Assembly: GCF_003858635.1 (NCBI RefSeq)
Contig: NZ_RQJO01000009.1
Location: 620,001 to 684,000 of the forward strand
Length of the DNA: 64,000 nucleotides
From: Larkinella rosea
GTDB taxonomy: Bacteria; Bacteroidota; Bacteroidia; Cytophagales; Spirosomataceae
Direction of reading: 5' to 3'
Notes under the pieces: generated by a model
Told to the model about the DNA's origin: nothing
The model's input: only the letters and a program-made list of their open reading frames with translations
Databases searched by the model: none
Position numbers and translations under genes: made by a program
Shown: one piece after another, positions 44,036-51,207 of the stretch
Numbering within the stretch: the stretch's first letter is position 1
How the letters are laid out: the number at the start of each line of letters is the position of its first letter

Positions 44036-45112
44036 TTAACGAGTGATTGAAACCGGTGGCTGGAACAGGAAATAATCGTAAATCGTGCGGCTGAGGTGGG
44101 CGATGGTTTGTTCGCGTTCGGCCAGCGGCTGGGCCGAGGACGTGATGAAAACCGCAATAACAATGTGGCCCGCGTCGCCCGGCATAGTGATGATACCGAC
44201 ATCATCGGTGGCGCTAGAATTCAACGAACCGGTTTTATGGGCTACTACGGTTTCGGGTGGCAGAAAGCCTTTGATTCGAGCCAAACCGCCCCGGCAGCGT
44301 TCCATCACCGCCAGCAGCACATCCCGGCTTTCCGGTTTGAGGGCTTTGGCCTGGTAAATCTGGGTCAGCAGGTTCACCATCGCTGCGGGCGTCGAGGTGT
44401 CGCGGGGGTCCTGCTCGAGTTTCAGGGCGGCTGCCCGGCGGATTTCCGGCGTGGCCGCTGCGCCGAGTTTGTCGTAAAAGCCAACGGTCCACTGATCCTC
44501 CGCCGGTAACGTAACTCCTTCCAGGTCCGCAATCAACTGGATAATGGTCCGGTCGACAGACATGCCTTCCACTCCCAATGCCTTCAACCGGGCGCGAACC
44601 GGTTCGGCCCCACCGACCAGCCGGAGCAGAATGTCAGTAGCGGAGTTGTCGCTGATGACCATCATCAATTCCAGCAGGTTTTCCACCGAAAGCGAAACGC
44701 CCGGTTTGGCAAACAGCGTTTCCAGCGTCCCGCTCCCCGGATGCAGATCTGACGGTTTCAGATCGACCATCGTTCGCAGGGAAAGTTCACCTTTTTCGAT
44801 TTTAGTAAATAATTCAACGGCAATGGCGACTTTCACCGTGCTGGCCATCGGAAACCGCTCCTGGAGATTCAGGCTGATCTGTTTGCCGGACTCAAGGTGC
44901 ACGGCACAAACCCCAACTTTCCCCTTGGCAAGTTTGGCAATGCGCTCCAGTTCCTGATTCAGCCGCTGTTCGGCCACATTCGGAACAACGGGAGCCGGAG
45001 CGGTAACAGGGGCGGTTTTACTTTTTTTCGATTGACTAAAACCAGGCGTGGTGATCAAACCGATCAGCCCGAAGAGAAAGAACGTTGTGATGAAAGGTAG
45101 CGGTTTTCGCAT
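44036..45112 (-). CDS. bla: Class A beta-lactamase
   Basis: The 358-residue precursor has a signal peptide (cleavage near PGFSQS) and a Pro/Ala-rich linker before the catalytic domain. All class A elements are recognisable. These are STVK (about residue 90, nucleophile Ser and Lys), SDN (about 153), an omega-loop with KLEQDPRDTSTP (about 233, supplying the deacylation Glu) and KTGS (about 291). The omega-loop style resembles the Bacteroidota subclass A2 (CfxA/PER/VEB-like) rather than TEM. It should hydrolyse beta-lactams in the periplasm, and its spectrum is not predictable from sequence. No regulator or mobile element flanks it, so it looks like an intrinsic chromosomal gene. Confidence 0.92.
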   Translation of the reverse strand: MRKPLPFITTFFLFGLIGLITTPGFSQSKKSKTAPVTAPAPVVPNVAEQRLNQELERIAKLAKGKVGVCAVHLESGKQISLNLQERFPMASTVKVAIAVELFTKIEKGELSLRTMVDLKPSDLHPGSGTLETLFAKPGVSLSVENLLELMMVISDNSATDILLRLVGGAEPVRARLKALGVEGMSVDRTIIQLIADLEGVTLPAEDQWTVGFYDKLGAAATPEIRRAAALKLEQDPRDTSTPAAMVNLLTQIYQAKALKPESRDVLLAVMERCRGGLARIKGFLPPETVVAHKTGSLNSSATDDVGIITMPGDAGHIVIAVFITSSAQPLAEREQTIAHLSRTIYDYFLFQPPVSITR

Positions 45113-45289: not shown

Positions 45290-48286
45290 TCATTCCAATA
45301 GCTGCTGGTTATGGCGCAGCTTTTTAAATTCGATCCGCTGCGTGATCCCTTCCAGTCGCGGATCGGGTTTAAAAGGCAACTTCTCCATTTTTCGCACTTC
45401 GATGCTGGGAAAACCGAATTCAACGACGACTTTTCCTTCGAGCAAATACATACCGGCACCCCGGTAGGGGTATTTTTCGAGCGATTGCGGAAAATGCGTG
45501 GTATCAAAATAGTGATTTTCTACATCTAGAAAGTAGCCGAAAACCATGGGTCTGCCATTCTTCGCGGTGATTCGTTTAGAGGTGATCAGGTATCCCGTCA
45601 ACGTTACGATGTGTCCCTCGTGCTGGGGGAGTTGACGCGCCGTGATGCCCTGAATCTCATCCGCCAGGAGGCCAAACGGGGTCAGCAGGGGAAAACCCAG
45701 CAGTTCAATTTCGTCGTACCTGTCTTCAATCGCTTCCTGCCATAACGGGGGAAGTGCCAATTGGGACTGTTCCAGTTCAAAAAGGTCCGTTACGCCCTCG
45801 TGGTGGACGTAATTGTTGACCAGAGCGTGGGCGTGCCACAGGAGTTCTTTCTTGGTGTGGTTCTCGAGGGAGCGAAAGACGCCCGTGCGGATCAGGATAA
45901 TCAATTGTTCCAGACCTGCCGGAACGCGCCGGGTGAAATCTTCCATACTGGTAAACCGCTGTTGGTTTCGCTGTAGGATCAATTCCTGAACAACATGCTT
46001 TTCCAGTGACTTGATGTGAATAAAACCCAGCCAGATGACCTGGCCTTCAATGCGGGTCAGGTAGTCGCTGTGCTGAATATCAGGGGCTTCGATCCGGGCT
46101 CCCCACCGCCGGGCTTCGTTGACGTAAAACTCCGTTCCGTAAAAACCACCAAAGTTGTTGATAACCGCTACCATAAACTCCAGCGGATAATAGGTCTTTA
46201 GAAACAGACTCTGGTAGCTCTCCACCGCGAAACTGGCCGAATGCGCTTTGCTGAAGCTGTAGCCCCCAAAACTCTGAATCTGCCGCCAGACCTCCCGTGC
46301 TACTGCGTCGGGGTAGCCCATTGCTTTACAGTTTTCGAAAAACCGCCCCTCAATGCGCGCAAACTGCGGTTTGCCCCGGTACTTCCCGGACATGGCCCGG
46401 CGCAAAATATCCGCTTCCGCCAGTGTCAGGCCCGCAAAATGGTGCGCGACCTTGATGACATCTTCCTGGTAAATCATGACGCCATACGTTTCCTCCATCA
46501 ACTCCTGCATCTTCGGATGCACAGCAATATAATTCGCCGGGTTGTGGTGCCGGCGAATGTACTCCGACATCATGCCGCTGGACGCAACGCCCGGCCGGAT
46601 GACCGACGAAGCCGCTACCAGGGTCAGGTAATCCGCACACTGGAGTTTCCAGATCAATTGCCGCATAGCGGGCGACTCGATGTAAAAACACCCCATCGTT
46701 TCATGGCTCTGAAGTTGCCGACGGACCTTCTCGTCTTTGACAAAGTCCTGAATGCGGTGAATATCGATCTGAATCTGGCGGTTTTTTCGCACCAGATCGA
46801 CGGCTTCCTTGATGTGTCCCAACCCGCGCTGGCTGAGAATATCCCACTTGGCAAAACCAATGTCTTCGGCAACGTGCATATCGAACTGGCAGATTGGAAA
46901 CCCTTTCGGTGGAAGCTCCAGCGCCGTGTACTGGTACAGCGGTGTTTCCGAGATCAGAATTCCGCCCGCGTGAATGCCGAGGTAATTGGGAAAATGCTCC
47001 AGTTCTTTGGCATATCTGAAAATATACTTGTTGTATTCGTTGGGCGGGGCCGCCTGCGGATTGGCAACCAGTTCATCAAGTTCGGATTTCGGCAATCCGA
47101 ACACCTTTCCGAGTTCCCGATAGGCGGCCCGATCCTGAAATGTGACATAGTTGGCCACCATACAGACATGATGACGCCCATACATTTTGAAGATGTAATC
47201 GATAATATCGTCGCGTTCGTCCCACGAAAAGTCGATGTCGAAATCGGGCGGTGAGGTGCGTTCGGGATTGATAAACCGCTCAAAGTACAAATCCAGGGCA
47301 ATCGGGTCCACGTCGGTAATTCGCATACAGTAGGCCACGATCGAATTGGCCCCCGACCCACGCCCGACGTGGTGGTACCCCCGGGAATGGGCATACCGGA
47401 TAATGTCCCAGGTAATCAGAAAGTAGGACGAAAAATTCAGTTCCTCAATGGTTTTCAACTCATTATCGACCCGCCGACGGGCTTCCGCATGATCACTTCC
47501 GTAGCGATCGCGCATGCCTTCTTCCGCCAGTTTCCGGAGCAGATTCAGATCGTCGTGCTTGCTGAGGGTGTAGAATTTCCGGTTTTTGGGCATCGAAAAA
47601 TCGAAATCGAAGGTACAATTCGCCAGTAGATTTTGGGTATTGTTAATTACTTCCGGCCAATCGCGAAAAACGGCTTCCAGTTCCGTTGGCGACCGGAAGA
47701 ACTCATTCGGTAAAACGGTTTCGTACTCGGTCAGCCTGGAAAGCAGGCAATTGTGATCAATCGCCCGCAGTAACTTATGCAGGTTAAATCCAATCTTGTC
47801 CACATAGGTCATGGGTTGTAGAAGAACCACCTGATGCGGTTTTATTTTGTGACCGTGGCGCCACAACTGGCTCGTATTGGTTACTGCCTGAACGCCCACA
47901 TACTCCTGCGATCCCAGGTCGGTAAAGTGATCCAGATTTTCGATGGGATAAATCACAGAAACCTGCTGGAAGTCGGGCGCACGCAGCGGGAAATCCTTTT
48001 TCGACAGAAGATACTGCGTTAAAAACCGGTTGATTTCCGCAAAACCGTCGAGGTTCCGGGCAATGCAGACGTAGGCCAGTTGCTGACGGTTGCGAAACTC
48101 GACACCTACAACCGGTTGAATTTCTGCGGCCCGGCAACACTTCACGAACTGAAAAACACCCGAAACCGTGTTGATATCCGTCAGCGCCAGCGTCTGAATG
48201 CCCAGCGTAACCGCCTGATTGACCAGATTTTCGGGCGAAAGCGTGCCGTAGCGGAGGGAAAAGTAGCTGTGAACGTTGAGGTACAT
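45290..48286 (-). CDS. DnaE-type DNA polymerase III alpha subunit, short form
   Basis: The 998-residue C-family polymerase has a PHP domain (MYLNVHSYFSLRYG ... LALTDINTVSG) in which the usual first metal-binding histidines are not conserved. The catalytic palm is intact (HHVGRGSGANSIVAYCM, PDFDIDFSWDERDD, about residue 350). The fingers (SGKYRGKP, GYSFSKAHSASFAVESYQS) and a C-terminal OB-fold (GHIVTLTGYLITSKRITAKNGRPMVFG) follow. It is about 150 residues shorter than replicative DnaE and lacks an obvious clamp-loader-binding tail. This matches DnaE2/ImuC-like error-prone polymerases in size. It is the last gene of an operon with DinB and a YopX-family protein, 15 bp after the latter. Confidence 0.9.
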   Translation of the reverse strand: MYLNVHSYFSLRYGTLSPENLVNQAVTLGIQTLALTDINTVSGVFQFVKCCRAAEIQPVVGVEFRNRQQLAYVCIARNLDGFAEINRFLTQYLLSKKDFPLRAPDFQQVSVIYPIENLDHFTDLGSQEYVGVQAVTNTSQLWRHGHKIKPHQVVLLQPMTYVDKIGFNLHKLLRAIDHNCLLSRLTEYETVLPNEFFRSPTELEAVFRDWPEVINNTQNLLANCTFDFDFSMPKNRKFYTLSKHDDLNLLRKLAEEGMRDRYGSDHAEARRRVDNELKTIEELNFSSYFLITWDIIRYAHSRGYHHVGRGSGANSIVAYCMRITDVDPIALDLYFERFINPERTSPPDFDIDFSWDERDDIIDYIFKMYGRHHVCMVANYVTFQDRAAYRELGKVFGLPKSELDELVANPQAAPPNEYNKYIFRYAKELEHFPNYLGIHAGGILISETPLYQYTALELPPKGFPICQFDMHVAEDIGFAKWDILSQRGLGHIKEAVDLVRKNRQIQIDIHRIQDFVKDEKVRRQLQSHETMGCFYIESPAMRQLIWKLQCADYLTLVAASSVIRPGVASSGMMSEYIRRHHNPANYIAVHPKMQELMEETYGVMIYQEDVIKVAHHFAGLTLAEADILRRAMSGKYRGKPQFARIEGRFFENCKAMGYPDAVAREVWRQIQSFGGYSFSKAHSASFAVESYQSLFLKTYYPLEFMVAVINNFGGFYGTEFYVNEARRWGARIEAPDIQHSDYLTRIEGQVIWLGFIHIKSLEKHVVQELILQRNQQRFTSMEDFTRRVPAGLEQLIILIRTGVFRSLENHTKKELLWHAHALVNNYVHHEGVTDLFELEQSQLALPPLWQEAIEDRYDEIELLGFPLLTPFGLLADEIQGITARQLPQHEGHIVTLTGYLITSKRITAKNGRPMVFGYFLDVENHYFDTTHFPQSLEKYPYRGAGMYLLEGKVVVEFGFPSIEVRKMEKLPFKPDPRLEGITQRIEFKKLRHNQQLLE

Positions 48287-48301: not shown

Positions 48302-48748
48302 TTAAGCCGCCCAAAGCAGCGACGAAGGTGGCAGATCCAGTGCCAGGTGCGGATGTTCAAAGAAATTGCCCACCTGTTTAACCGCCTGAGCCAGTTCCCG
48401 ATCCAGCCGTAAGTAGGGCGGCAACCCCATGCTGTTCAGCAAAAACAGGCTGTAACCGCTCTGTTCCGGGTGATTCTGGATGATCCAGTGATGCCCATCA
48501 CATTCAACAATGTCGTAATCGAACAGCAGGGTTCCTTCCCGGTCGTGTTGCCCCACCGACAACATCAGGCGCCAGGGTTCGGTCGTCTCATACAGGCGGA
48601 TATCGGCCGGATTGGCCAGATTGACCAGCGCCAGGACATCTTCGAGCAGAATGGTTTGAAAGTGGTTTGTGCGCGTCATCTGCGACGAGAGGTAGTACAT
48701 GTGCCGGTTTTGCGTATCCCAGACCCGGCAGTTTAGAGCGAATGACAT
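48302..48748 (-). CDS. Small YopX-family protein encoded between DinB and DnaE
   Basis: From ATG 48748 the protein is 148 residues. The open frame continues upstream to 49099, but that part lies inside dinB in another phase and is rejected. The opening ALNCRVWDTQNRHMYYLSS matches the YopX pattern (RVWD...MxY). TLLFDYDIVECDGHHWII matches the (E/D)xDIVxxDG element. The end VGNFFEHPHL corresponds to the family's (I/V)GNxxENPEL motif. YopX proteins are mostly known from phages and their function is unknown. Gaps of 17 bp after dinB and 15 bp before dnaE make co-translation likely. A role as accessory factor of the two polymerases is inferred from position only. Confidence 0.7.
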   Translation of the reverse strand: MSFALNCRVWDTQNRHMYYLSSQMTRTNHFQTILLEDVLALVNLANPADIRLYETTEPWRLMLSVGQHDREGTLLFDYDIVECDGHHWIIQNHPEQSGYSLFLLNSMGLPPYLRLDRELAQAVKQVGNFFEHPHLALDLPPSSLLWAA

Positions 48749-48765
48749 GGTTGTATTGGTTTTGA

Positions 48766-49953
48766 TCAGATTCCTAATTGGTAATGGCTGGCCCGCCCGA
48801 TTTTGTGTTCCCCGTACCGGTCGCGGATTCGGTCGGTTTTCTGATAGAGGGTCGGCAGCTTGGAAGAAACTACGTCGCCTGCCGCATCGAACAGGGCCAG
48901 TTGCTCGGTTCCCCGCACCAGCTTTCCCAGACTGACGCCCACCAGCCGGATCATCAACCGCCGGTTGTAGAGTGCATCGAAGACTTTCAGCGCGGCCAGG
49001 GTCAATTGATGATCCGACGAAGTCGCCGGAAGCGTTACCTGGCGGGTGTACGTCTGGAAATCGGAATAGCGCACCTTGACCGTCACTTTGCCGGCACAAA
49101 AACCGCTCTTCCGCAGGTCATACGCCAGCGTTTCGACCATCCGTGACAAGGTTCCCTGCAACAGCTGCACATCGATCGTATCGGTCTGGAAGGTCATTTC
49201 CTTCGACATCGACTTCTGTTGGTGCGACGGCAGAACCGGGGAAGGGTCGATGCCATTGGCGCGATCCCAGAGAAACAGACCGGTTTTTCCGAATGTTTTC
49301 TCCAACAATCGCCGGGGAATCTGGGCCAGGGTTCCCAGTTTGGTCACGCCCATGCAGCGCAGCGTGTGTGCCATTTTCTCGCCCACGCCCGGTAATTTGC
49401 CCACATTGAGTTGCCACAGAAAGGGCTGAACCTCCGGAGCGCGGACATACAAAGCACCATTGGGTTTGTTTTCATTGGCCGCCATCTTGGAAACTGTCTT
49501 GGTGTTGGACAATCCCCAACTGACCGACAGGCCCGTTTCGCGAACAATCGCTTCCTTCGTCTCCTTCGCCCACTGCAAACAACCCACGAACTTCTCCATG
49601 CCGGTCATATCGATGTAGAATTCATCGATACTCGCTTTTTCCAAAACCGGGGCGCGCTCGGTAAGAATATCCGTGACCATGTTCGAATAGTGCCCGTACG
49701 ATTCATAATCTCCCTTGATGACGGTGGCTTCGGGGCACAACCTTCGGGCCAGTCGCATGGGCATGGCCGCGCGAACCCCAAACCGCCGGGCTTCATAACT
49801 GGCCGCTGCCACCACCCCCCGGTCACTGCTGCCCCCGACGAGCAGGGGCCGACCCCGCAACTGGGGCTGGCGCAGCACTTCGACGGAGGTAAAGAACGAA
49901 TCCAGATCGGTGTGCAGGATTTGGCGATCGAAAGCACTCTGGGTCTGATCCAT
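48766..49953 (-). CDS. dinB: Y-family DNA polymerase (DNA polymerase IV type)
   Basis: From ATG 49953 the product is 395 residues, and a longer frame from 50028 runs through the operator region. The palm has ILHTDLDSFFTSVEV (first metal Asp) and KASIDEFYIDMTG (second Asp/Glu pair). The steric-gate and fingers region VVAAASYEARRFGVRAAMP and a helix-hairpin-helix thumb (VGKLPGVGEKMAHTLRCMG) follow. The little finger domain completes it. GTEQLALFDA near residue 363 resembles a sliding-clamp-binding QLxLF motif. It performs translesion synthesis. It is first in the operon dinB-yopX-like-dnaE and divergent from the S24 repressor. Confidence 0.93.
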   Translation of the reverse strand: MDQTQSAFDRQILHTDLDSFFTSVEVLRQPQLRGRPLLVGGSSDRGVVAAASYEARRFGVRAAMPMRLARRLCPEATVIKGDYESYGHYSNMVTDILTERAPVLEKASIDEFYIDMTGMEKFVGCLQWAKETKEAIVRETGLSVSWGLSNTKTVSKMAANENKPNGALYVRAPEVQPFLWQLNVGKLPGVGEKMAHTLRCMGVTKLGTLAQIPRRLLEKTFGKTGLFLWDRANGIDPSPVLPSHQQKSMSKEMTFQTDTIDVQLLQGTLSRMVETLAYDLRKSGFCAGKVTVKVRYSDFQTYTRQVTLPATSSDHQLTLAALKVFDALYNRRLMIRLVGVSLGKLVRGTEQLALFDAAGDVVSSKLPTLYQKTDRIRDRYGEHKIGRASHYQLGI

Positions 49954-50150
49954 ACAATTGTAAGCATTGCAAGCATTAGTAAGCTTGTTATACAAGCGCA
50001 AGAATGCTGATAAAACTGACATTGCCAAAAAAAGGTTACTATTTTTTTGTTTTTGAGTAACATGTAATGCTTTTACAATGCTTGCCTAATTTACATTTGT
50101 AAATTTCTGACACTAAAATGCTGGTAATACTTACATTTTGATTATCTTTG
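49954..50150. promoter_or_regulatory. Divergent operator/promoter region with AATGCTT repeats
   Basis: Between dinB and the S24 gene, AAGCATT occurs at 49962-49968 and 49971-49977. Its complement AATGCTT occurs at 50066-50072 and 50077-50083, with variants near 50002 and 50118. A perfect dyad ATTTACA-TT-TGTAAAT lies at 50089-50104. TATCTTTG (50143-50150) is a good -7 box for the S24 gene, 18 bp before its ATG. The doubled AATGCTT units on each side suggest autoregulation and coordinate repression of both transcripts. Confidence 0.6.
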
Positions 50151-50168
50151 ATTGTAATTAGCTGAGTT

Positions 50169-50984
50169 ATGTATCTATCTGATAATCTGAAAGTTCTCCG
50201 AAAATACTTCCATTTGAAGCAGGACGAAGTGGCTTCAGAAGTGGGCATCAGCCGGCAAATGGTGGGCTTTTACGAAAGCGGAACCTATGTTCCTCCCATT
50301 GAGACGTTGAATCTGTTAGCTACGTTTCTGCGGGTTTCGTTGGATACACTGGTGAACCAACCCCTGGCAAAGCTTTCCCCAAAGCAGTTCGAGCAACTCA
50401 TGGCTGCCCCGAACCCGGTCTACCGGGGCAGCGCGCTGCAGGTGCGGGAGGTGCTCCATTCGGTGAAGGATGATCAGGAATTGATTGAGGTGGTACCTAT
50501 TCCCGCATCGATGGGGTACGCGCAGGGCGGGTACGCGGATCAGGAGTTCATGGCCGACCTGGAAAAATTTCACTTGCCACTGCCCGGCATTAGCCCGGAC
50601 CGGCTTTACCGGCTTTTCTCCACCGAGGGCGATTCGATGTACCCGGCCGTCACGGAAGGGTCGCACATTCTGGGCGAATACGTGGAGGACTGGTATTCGA
50701 TCAAAAGTGGGACGAACTGCATTTTCGTGCTGCAAACGGAAGGCATTGTCTTCAAAAAAGCCGTGAACGAACTGACCACGAAGCAGCGGTTTGAACTGCA
50801 TTCACTGAATACGTTTTACAAGCCTTATTACGTGCCGATTGAGGATATTAAAGAGATCTGGAAGTTCAAAAAGTTACTGACCGATGTGCTGCCGGAGCCC
50901 GAAAGCTCGATGACGAAATTGCTGTCCGAAATACGTGAATTGAAAGGCGGACAAACCGAAATTCTGAGCCGTCTTCCCAGGTAA
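50169..50984 (+). CDS. XRE-type repressor with S24 (LexA/CI) peptidase domain
   Basis: The 271-residue protein has an N-terminal helix-turn-helix (NLKVLRKYFHLKQDEVASEVGISRQMVGFYESGTYVPP, about 6-45). A linker leads to an S24 domain with the nucleophile Ser in FSTEGDSMYPAV (about residue 155) and the general-base Lys in GIVFKKAVNEL (about 196). The expected Ala-Gly self-cleavage bond is not present at the usual place. The corresponding stretch reads PASMGYAQGGYADQEF, with Met-Gly. A C-terminal charged helix could be a coiled coil. It probably represses the divergent dinB operon until RecA-type activation. Confidence 0.9.
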   Translation: MYLSDNLKVLRKYFHLKQDEVASEVGISRQMVGFYESGTYVPPIETLNLLATFLRVSLDTLVNQPLAKLSPKQFEQLMAAPNPVYRGSALQVREVLHSVKDDQELIEVVPIPASMGYAQGGYADQEFMADLEKFHLPLPGISPDRLYRLFSTEGDSMYPAVTEGSHILGEYVEDWYSIKSGTNCIFVLQTEGIVFKKAVNELTTKQRFELHSLNTFYKPYYVPIEDIKEIWKFKKLLTDVLPEPESSMTKLLSEIRELKGGQTEILSRLPR

Positions 50985-50988
50985 GCGA

Positions 50989-51207
50989 ATGATTATTATT
51001 TCCGGCGCGCACCTGGCCGCCATGCTTCCCGGCTGTAAATACACAATTGTGGCTAATTCCTTAATGAGTGGCAACGAAGCACTGCTGTTTTGTCAAAAAC
51101 TGAACGTGTCCTGGCCGGTCGCCGAGCTGCTTTCAGACGCGGATATTCGGGATCAGGTGTTCAGCTCCTTACGAATCGCCATTCCGGAAAACGCGCCGAG
51201 TGTGTAA
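50989..51207 (+). CDS. Small hypothetical protein downstream of the S24 repressor
   Basis: This is a 72-residue frame starting 4 bp after the repressor stop, which suggests translational coupling. It begins MIIISGAHLAAMLPG and has a moderately hydrophobic N-terminal half but no clear membrane helix, motif or recognised family. It ends just before the terminator at 51220-51260, consistent with being the last gene of a two-gene transcript. I cannot exclude a chance frame. Confidence 0.4.
   Translation: MIIISGAHLAAMLPGCKYTIVANSLMSGNEALLFCQKLNVSWPVAELLSDADIRDQVFSSLRIAIPENAPSV

Follow-up and report, generated by a model that had tools for sequence, protein, structure and literature searches.

The Larkinella rosea DNA analysed here, a stretch of 64,000 nucleotides referred to as the window, probably holds a translesion synthesis operon of the Bacteroidetes DnaE2B-PolY type, in which dinB, a YopX-family gene (yopX) and dnaE are damage-inducible under a divergent CI-like S24 repressor; we put the probability of this reading at roughly 70%. 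The arrangement is a variant of a published kind, and the YopX-family gene and the altered cleavage site of the repressor are its only unusual parts. The original prediction had an S24 gene diverging from dinB, yopX and dnaE, and the open reading frames (ORFs) and Pfam agree with it, including the gaps of 17 bp (dinB-yopX) and 15 bp (yopX-dnaE). It had bounded the cassette at 48302-50984, which encloses three of the genes and leaves outside dnaE, a member of the operon. The four-gene order is not due to chance, because it is kept in five further Larkinella genomes (L022-L026, where L numbers denote loci; match values of L023 and L024 are identical). L. terrae is the nearest among the best 80 named loci, with dinB at 92%.

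In an undamaged cell, a dimer of the S24 repressor would occupy the shared intergenic region, most likely via the palindrome TTTACATTTGTAAA, and hold both promoters off. RecA filaments formed upon DNA damage would trigger self-cleavage of the repressor, presumably at a Met-Gly dipeptide, or its release, after which dinB, yopX and dnaE would be expressed together. The Y-family and DnaE2-type polymerases, possibly as a complex and perhaps with RecA, could then bypass lesions at the cost of mutations. YopX is more likely to act as a lineage-specific accessory, either a modulator or a passenger, than as a core subunit.

The polymerases

The dinB product matches the Pfam families IMS and IMS_C, and its DxD and SIDE residues are invariant in all seven aligned cassettes; as these catalytic residues are retained, the protein is not of the catalytically dead ImuB type. 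QLALF, which we take to be a clamp-type motif, lies near its C-terminus. Counted from the chosen start of dinB, the alignment begins at residue 1 for L022, the closest relative, and at residues 3-12 for others. The product of dnaE matches DNA_pol3_alpha, finger, HHH_6 and PHP, is 29-38% identical to the genome's own DnaE1 over the matched parts and retains the polymerase motif PDxDxD, and relative to DnaE1 its PHP histidines are replaced (HxH by NxH, TDH by TDI). Judged by sequence, one of the two polymerases has a degenerate PHP (proofreading) site, and the motif pattern is consistent with error-prone DnaE2 as described in parts of PMC3919608 and PMC12926913. No imuA adjoins the operon. The genome has three IMS genes in total, the other two being of the Pol IV type (L039) and the UmuC type (L040), and one RecA-family match, recA at C12:519025. 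An XRE/S24 gene is also divergent from the UmuC-type polymerase (L040 5128-7240, contig C13), and its dipeptide, read by eye, is Ala-Ser.

The S24 repressor and its expected cleavage site

Pfam assigns HTH_3 and, barely above the cut-off (24.5 vs 23.3 bits), Peptidase_S24 to the repressor. Its helix-turn-helix (HTH) domain is of the multi-helical CI type and not winged, with profile and structure matches to P22 C2, 434 and CylR2-type chains. The structure model has a mean pLDDT of 77.9, and its matches, at E-values of 3e-6 to 1e-4, include a lambda-186 hybrid repressor, LexA and RecA-bound LexA or CI; whole-length TM-scores are low (0.27-0.37) because the two domains are differently placed. 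The catalytic dyad is formed by Ser156 (in GDSM) and Lys196, and the lysine aligns in 86/86 S24 proteins, namely 85 locus proteins chosen by a GDSM/GESM pattern, not all of which face dinB, and the protein of the window; the serine was preset in this pattern and only the lysine count is informative.

The expected cleavage position is occupied by Met115-Gly116, and this dipeptide raises the most serious doubt that the repressor is released in the usual way. Parts of PMC8565304 give Ala-Gly as the cleavage signature of Bacteroidetes S24 regulators, and 54 of the 86 proteins have it, followed by Ala-Ser (19), Met-Gly (12) and Lys-Gly (1, L081); these counts include duplicates, as L193, L194 and L195 are the places of L022, L023 and L026. 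Met-Gly is found in the window, L022-L027, the three duplicates, L262 (Chryseobacterium) and L264 (Epilithonimonas). When the Chryseobacterium S24 protein was searched against the class, 118 of 395 genomes matched and 30 further loci were obtained, of which 28 have Ala-Gly and two Met-Gly (L286, L287). Among the papers listed for methionine at the P1 position of LexA, none was of use. Ala-Ser is another exception to the published signature and occurs in the order family f19 (such as L100 and L112) and in L229, L231, L251 and L254.

Candidate operator and promoters

The region separating the S24 gene from dinB contains a palindrome, TTTACAWTTGTAAA, in the window, in L022, in L023 (L024 alike) and in L026. 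Of the five distinct Larkinella cassettes, four have it; with the window and its close relative L022 counted once, the figure is three of four. In the window it spans 66-79 bp upstream of the S24 start. Exact TTTACANNTGTAAA has three matches, confined to two places of the 8.17-Mb genome, compared with none for a reversed control. The second place is a tandem pair (L190 1501-1528; G000:C10:2112704-2112731) about 11 bp ahead of an ORF of 324 aa that matches DUF932 below the threshold. On sequence grounds, the few other exact copies suggest a dedicated regulon of almost a single divergon. Allowing one mismatch gave 24 places, compared with 17 in the control, and none of those listed was near recA or the other two Y-family genes. 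Two of them (L275; G000:C10:856431 and 856540) are about 109 bp apart beside a 135-aa XRE gene and are possibly that gene's own operators. Upstream of the S24 gene, TATCTTTG is an exact match to TAnnTTTG, which we take to be the -7 element of Bacteroidetes promoters, and a second exact match, TACATTTG at 50092, falls inside the palindrome.

As to the published motifs, CTAA-N5-TTAG is not in the window, no GGA-N5-TCC was seen by eye in the intergenic region and neither was found ahead of the S24 gene in L022-L027. Among 85 S24 upstream regions from these and related loci, CTAA-N5-TTAG precedes five genes (L119, L134, L137, L230 and L255) and GGA-N5-TCC six (three copies each in L151, L152, L153 and L155, single copies in L205 and L208), which ties part of the divergons to the repressors described in PMC8565304. 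As far as anatomy goes, the predicted mutasome with its own repressor is borne out by the CI-like HTH, the LexA-like S24 fold, the intact polymerases, the degenerate PHP site and the palindrome.

Table 1. Features of the divergon in window coordinates
Feature	Position	Strand	Size or place	Basis
dnaE (short C-family polymerase, DnaE2-like)	45290-48286	-	998 aa	ORF list, Pfam
YopX-family gene	48302-48748	-	148 aa counted from ATG at 48748	ORF list, Pfam
dinB (active-type Y-family polymerase, PolY2/DinB-like)	48766-49953	-	395 aa from ATG at 49953	
Divergent intergenic region S24/dinB	49954-50168		215 bp	
Candidate operator TTTACATTTGTAAA	50090-50103	no strand		palindrome
TATCTTTG, -7-element match	50143-50150	+	18 bp before S24 start	
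XRE/CI-type HTH + S24 peptidase repressor	50169-50984	+	271 aa	

Distribution of the divergon

This type of dinB was found in 98 of 291 genomes of the order at a threshold of E 1e-80. From the 99 dinB matches listed outside the window, 80 loci were fetched, none of them from Larkinella or the genus g20; two of the 19 unfetched matches lie at short contig ends and the rest are mostly low in the list. At least 36 of the 80 fetched loci have a divergent S24 gene within 800 bp, at least 32 have dnaE within 1 kb downstream, at least 17 have both, and none has yopX. The best 80 named loci listed, which overlap with other loci, include at least 31 with a divergent S24 gene, 46 with a downstream dnaE and 25 with both, and three with yopX, all Larkinella. 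The S24 and dnaE counts are lower bounds owing to contig-end cuts and diverged S24 relatives, and a number of order loci in which dnaE precedes dinB were not counted as having dnaE downstream. In the family sample (150 genomes, threshold E 1e-70), 75 genomes have this dinB and eight of these have yopX beside it, six being Larkinella and two g20. All six Larkinella with this dinB carry the four-gene cassette; three of the nine Larkinella in the sample lack this dinB.

A novel kind of organisation is not supported, as S24-dinB(-dnaE) divergons recur in Bacteroidetes and have been published (PMC8565304, PMC6511836 and PMC12926913, each cited here from parts of the paper). The expected linkage of all four genes across relatives is kept within Larkinella, while YopX proved to be lineage-specific and not a fixed part. 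YopX shows linkage to each half of the module but does not belong to its core; the idea of a core role was rejected on account of its absence from most cassettes.

The YopX-family gene

The assignment of YopX rests on sequence profiles and not on the structure model. Its product scores 25.8 bits against PF09643 (cut-off 22.4) and gives profile matches to 2qyz, 2p84 and 2ox7 at 6e-7 to 1e-5, with 2i2l only at 0.038; the YopX-like proteins of g20 (L036, L037) stay below the Pfam cut-off. The family corresponds to PHROG 98, for which the function label is unknown. An AlphaFold2 model built on four sequences (pLDDT 63.3) had no PDB match at E 0.001 and was not used. No paper was found that combines YopX with dinB and dnaE, the YopX family with a DNA polymerase in Bacteroidetes, or Spirosoma with the SOS response and dinB, and the word YopX is absent from the main text of PMC8565304, PMC6511836, PMC12926913 and PMC3919608.

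In some Cytophagales, genes of the 2'-5' RNA ligase superfamily stand directly before dnaE at L134 4852-5460 (-), L156 3702-4271, L137 4618-5202 and L140 3707-4327, the first three assigned by PF13563 and L140 by eye. At L123, the gene after dinB is one for DNA alkylation repair (PF08713; 4676-5401, -), and another ORF precedes dnaE.

Alternative explanations

Three roles for YopX and one alternative for the repressor need to be weighed. The position between the polymerases, where the gaps are short in Larkinella and yopX overlaps dinB by 4 bp in g20 (L036, L037), would suit a small protein that joins the polymerase complex as its third subunit, comparable to UmuD', YqjX or ImuB-C and kept in fixed proportion by its place between dinB and dnaE. 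Beside this dinB, yopX holds the same place in 8/8 loci and is under constraint against L022 (dN/dS 0.036, compared with 0.085 for S24, 0.10 for dinB and 0.125 for dnaE), and parts of PMC12926913 describe PolY small subunits that differ among lineages. However, yopX is missing from or rare in the fetched and named loci counted above, and in L081, the closest relative that lacks it, dnaE follows dinB at a distance of 6 bp. Its dN/dS also climbs against farther Larkinella, to 0.16 (L023) and 0.38 (L026, near saturation), with no value for L025 (saturated), and its model is poor and without a significant fold match. Unrelated genes fill the same slot in other lineages, namely the 2'-5' RNA ligase superfamily, ORF6N (L216, L221) and 23S_rRNA_IVP (L245, L259). 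Moreover, of the 22 strong YopX profile matches (E <1e-20, among 27 listed for the family sample), eight are in the dinB-dnaE slot, six face an S24 gene with no polymerase in the stretch examined (L027, and L038, L162, L163, L164 and L187 of a third genus, g31) and eight are orphans, including one in the same genome (L030). A subunit role is unlikely. The S24-facing genes would fit a YopX that is a co-regulator or antirepressor-like partner of S24 and entered the operon via this link, by analogy with DdrR, the partner of UmuDAb in Acinetobacter, as presented in parts of PMC11332147. S24 faces YopX in 5/5 g31 genomes with a strong YopX match, all of them lacking this dinB at 1e-70, and S24 (45-48% identity) and YopX (43-61%) diverge faster than the polymerases (69-78%) between the window and L023, L025 and L026. 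This fast divergence has other causes too, the yopX genes of g20 lie in a dinB-dnaE operon with no S24 relative detected within the fetched stretch, and the eight orphans are without S24 within theirs, which leaves the co-regulator a tentative proposal. The same slot fillers, together with a YopX label that needs two changes on a dinB tree of 97 rows, and was therefore either acquired twice or acquired once and then lost, would also be expected of a phage-captured passenger that is co-transcribed by happenstance. YopX is a phage-type family, and the parts of the literature found on it are mostly phage papers. A passenger is possible, if short of probable; the gene is kept in 6/6 Larkinella cassettes and constrained against L022, the link to S24 recurs in g31, and a tblastn search (E 0.01) of 50,697 phage records, in which a phage source was sought, found no relative. 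Some hope, at modest odds, attaches to the broader proposal that YopX is an unrecognised partner of S24-controlled translesion synthesis, as a mutasome subunit or a DdrR-like co-regulator, under a repressor that cuts, if at all, at Met-Gly.

The repressor itself may no longer self-cleave, and the divergon could be derepressed by another signal or regulator. Methionine stands at P1 in the S24 protein of every Larkinella cassette found and of L027, with lysine at this position in L081. A second XRE/S24 protein of the same genome (L042, 1498-2280, contig C11; 260 aa, 36% identical to that of the window) keeps the Ala-Gly of the published signature and might control the damage response more broadly. 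Lost cleavage nevertheless appears improbable, as the dyad lysine and the P1' glycine are retained and Met-Gly recurs in the dinB-facing S24 proteins of Chryseobacterium and Epilithonimonas and in the two further class loci. In addition, the divergent pair of E. anophelis, whatever its dipeptide, is inducible according to parts of PMC8565304.

Several points weigh against the preferred reading of a damage-inducible operon under its own S24 repressor. The methionine at P1 could mean that cleavage is slow, different or lost, the cleavage site falls in a low-confidence loop of the model (117-121) with its placement resting on alignment, and the L042 protein could be the real damage regulator. The likeness of the DinB tail to the RecA N-terminus is weak, with 14 of 1000 shuffles reaching the window score, and fails in several relatives: the scores of five relatives are reached by 63 to 547 of 1000 shuffles, and those of the genome's own Pol IV and UmuC by 962 and 43. 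The palindrome is absent from L025, where one half-site was seen by eye, and from L027, and other intergenic repeats vary among Larkinella species. Its distance to the downstream -7 match is 39 bp, and the dinB strand of the intergenic region showed no exact TAnnTTTG. The size of the regulon is uncertain because one-mismatch matches barely exceed the control, for which reason regulon mapping by a relaxed pattern was rejected, and such matches also adjoin another XRE gene (L275). Finally, about 75 of the 85 S24 upstream regions have neither published motif.

Relation to known systems

Parts of PMC8565304 describe damage-responsive, CI-like S24 SOS regulators (non-canonical LexA) in Bacteroidetes, with dinB frequently sharing its operon with a gene for DNA polymerase III alpha under GGA-N5-TCC. 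The repressor of the window resembles these proteins in its CI-type HTH and S24 domains, its Ser-Lys dyad, its place near error-prone polymerase genes, the palindrome in its own promoter region and the extra C-terminal helix, which is the helix at 248-268 that ends the model. It differs in having Met-Gly instead of Ala-Gly, TTTACA-N2-TGTAAA instead of GGA-N5-TCC or CTAA-N5-TTAG, and perhaps a regulon of one divergon. Owing to the Met-Gly dipeptide, we treat it as a functionally similar relative and file it in neither published cluster; the same source could assign Cytophagaceae relatives to neither. It also reports diverged palindromes and, in E. anophelis, an opposed S24-polymerase pair that is mitomycin-inducible with its site bound. 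The site there, TTAC-AAATT-GTAA, is similar to TTAC-AWTT-GTAA here, although the spacer is 5 instead of 4 and the family is another one; the likeness concerns the layout and the site.

The polymerase half resembles the putative DnaE2B-PolY-RecA mutasome module of Bacteroidetes, with DnaE2 and an active PolY, that is described in parts of PMC6511836 and PMC12926913. Both have an active-looking PolY and a DnaE2-type polymerase in one operon with no imuA or imuB adjoining, and the YopX-family gene between the polymerases sets the present operon apart. It shares with imuA-imuB-dnaE2, as outlined in PMC6511836, a second C-family polymerase and a Y-family gene in one operon, but the Y-family protein here keeps its catalytic residues and no imuA is adjacent. 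Self-contained divergent units are also known for FddR of Francisella, where parts of PMC13148647 propose them as one stage on the way to an SOS network; that system belongs to another phylum, has the motif GTG-N11-CAC and is likened here in its layout.

The Larkinella divergon may show the smallest SOS-like circuit, consisting of one phage-type repressor, one palindrome and one mutagenic operon. It would extend two published findings on Bacteroidetes to a group whose repressors were left unassigned in the parts of PMC8565304 cited, and it provides an entry point to the YopX family, to which the parts of the literature found ascribed no function. If YopX were indeed a partner of the system, this phage-type family would gain a cellular role.

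Neighbouring genes

Of the flanking ORFs, Pfam assigns one to the beta-lactamase family and another to a Cys/Met-metabolism enzyme, and one of 72 aa has no match. The beta-lactamase-like ORF (PF13354; window 44036-45112, -) comes after dnaE. The 72-aa ORF (window 50989-51207, +) begins 4 bp past the S24 stop; none of its relatives was found in L026, and in L022-L025 they lie beyond the S24 gene with 76-93% identity.

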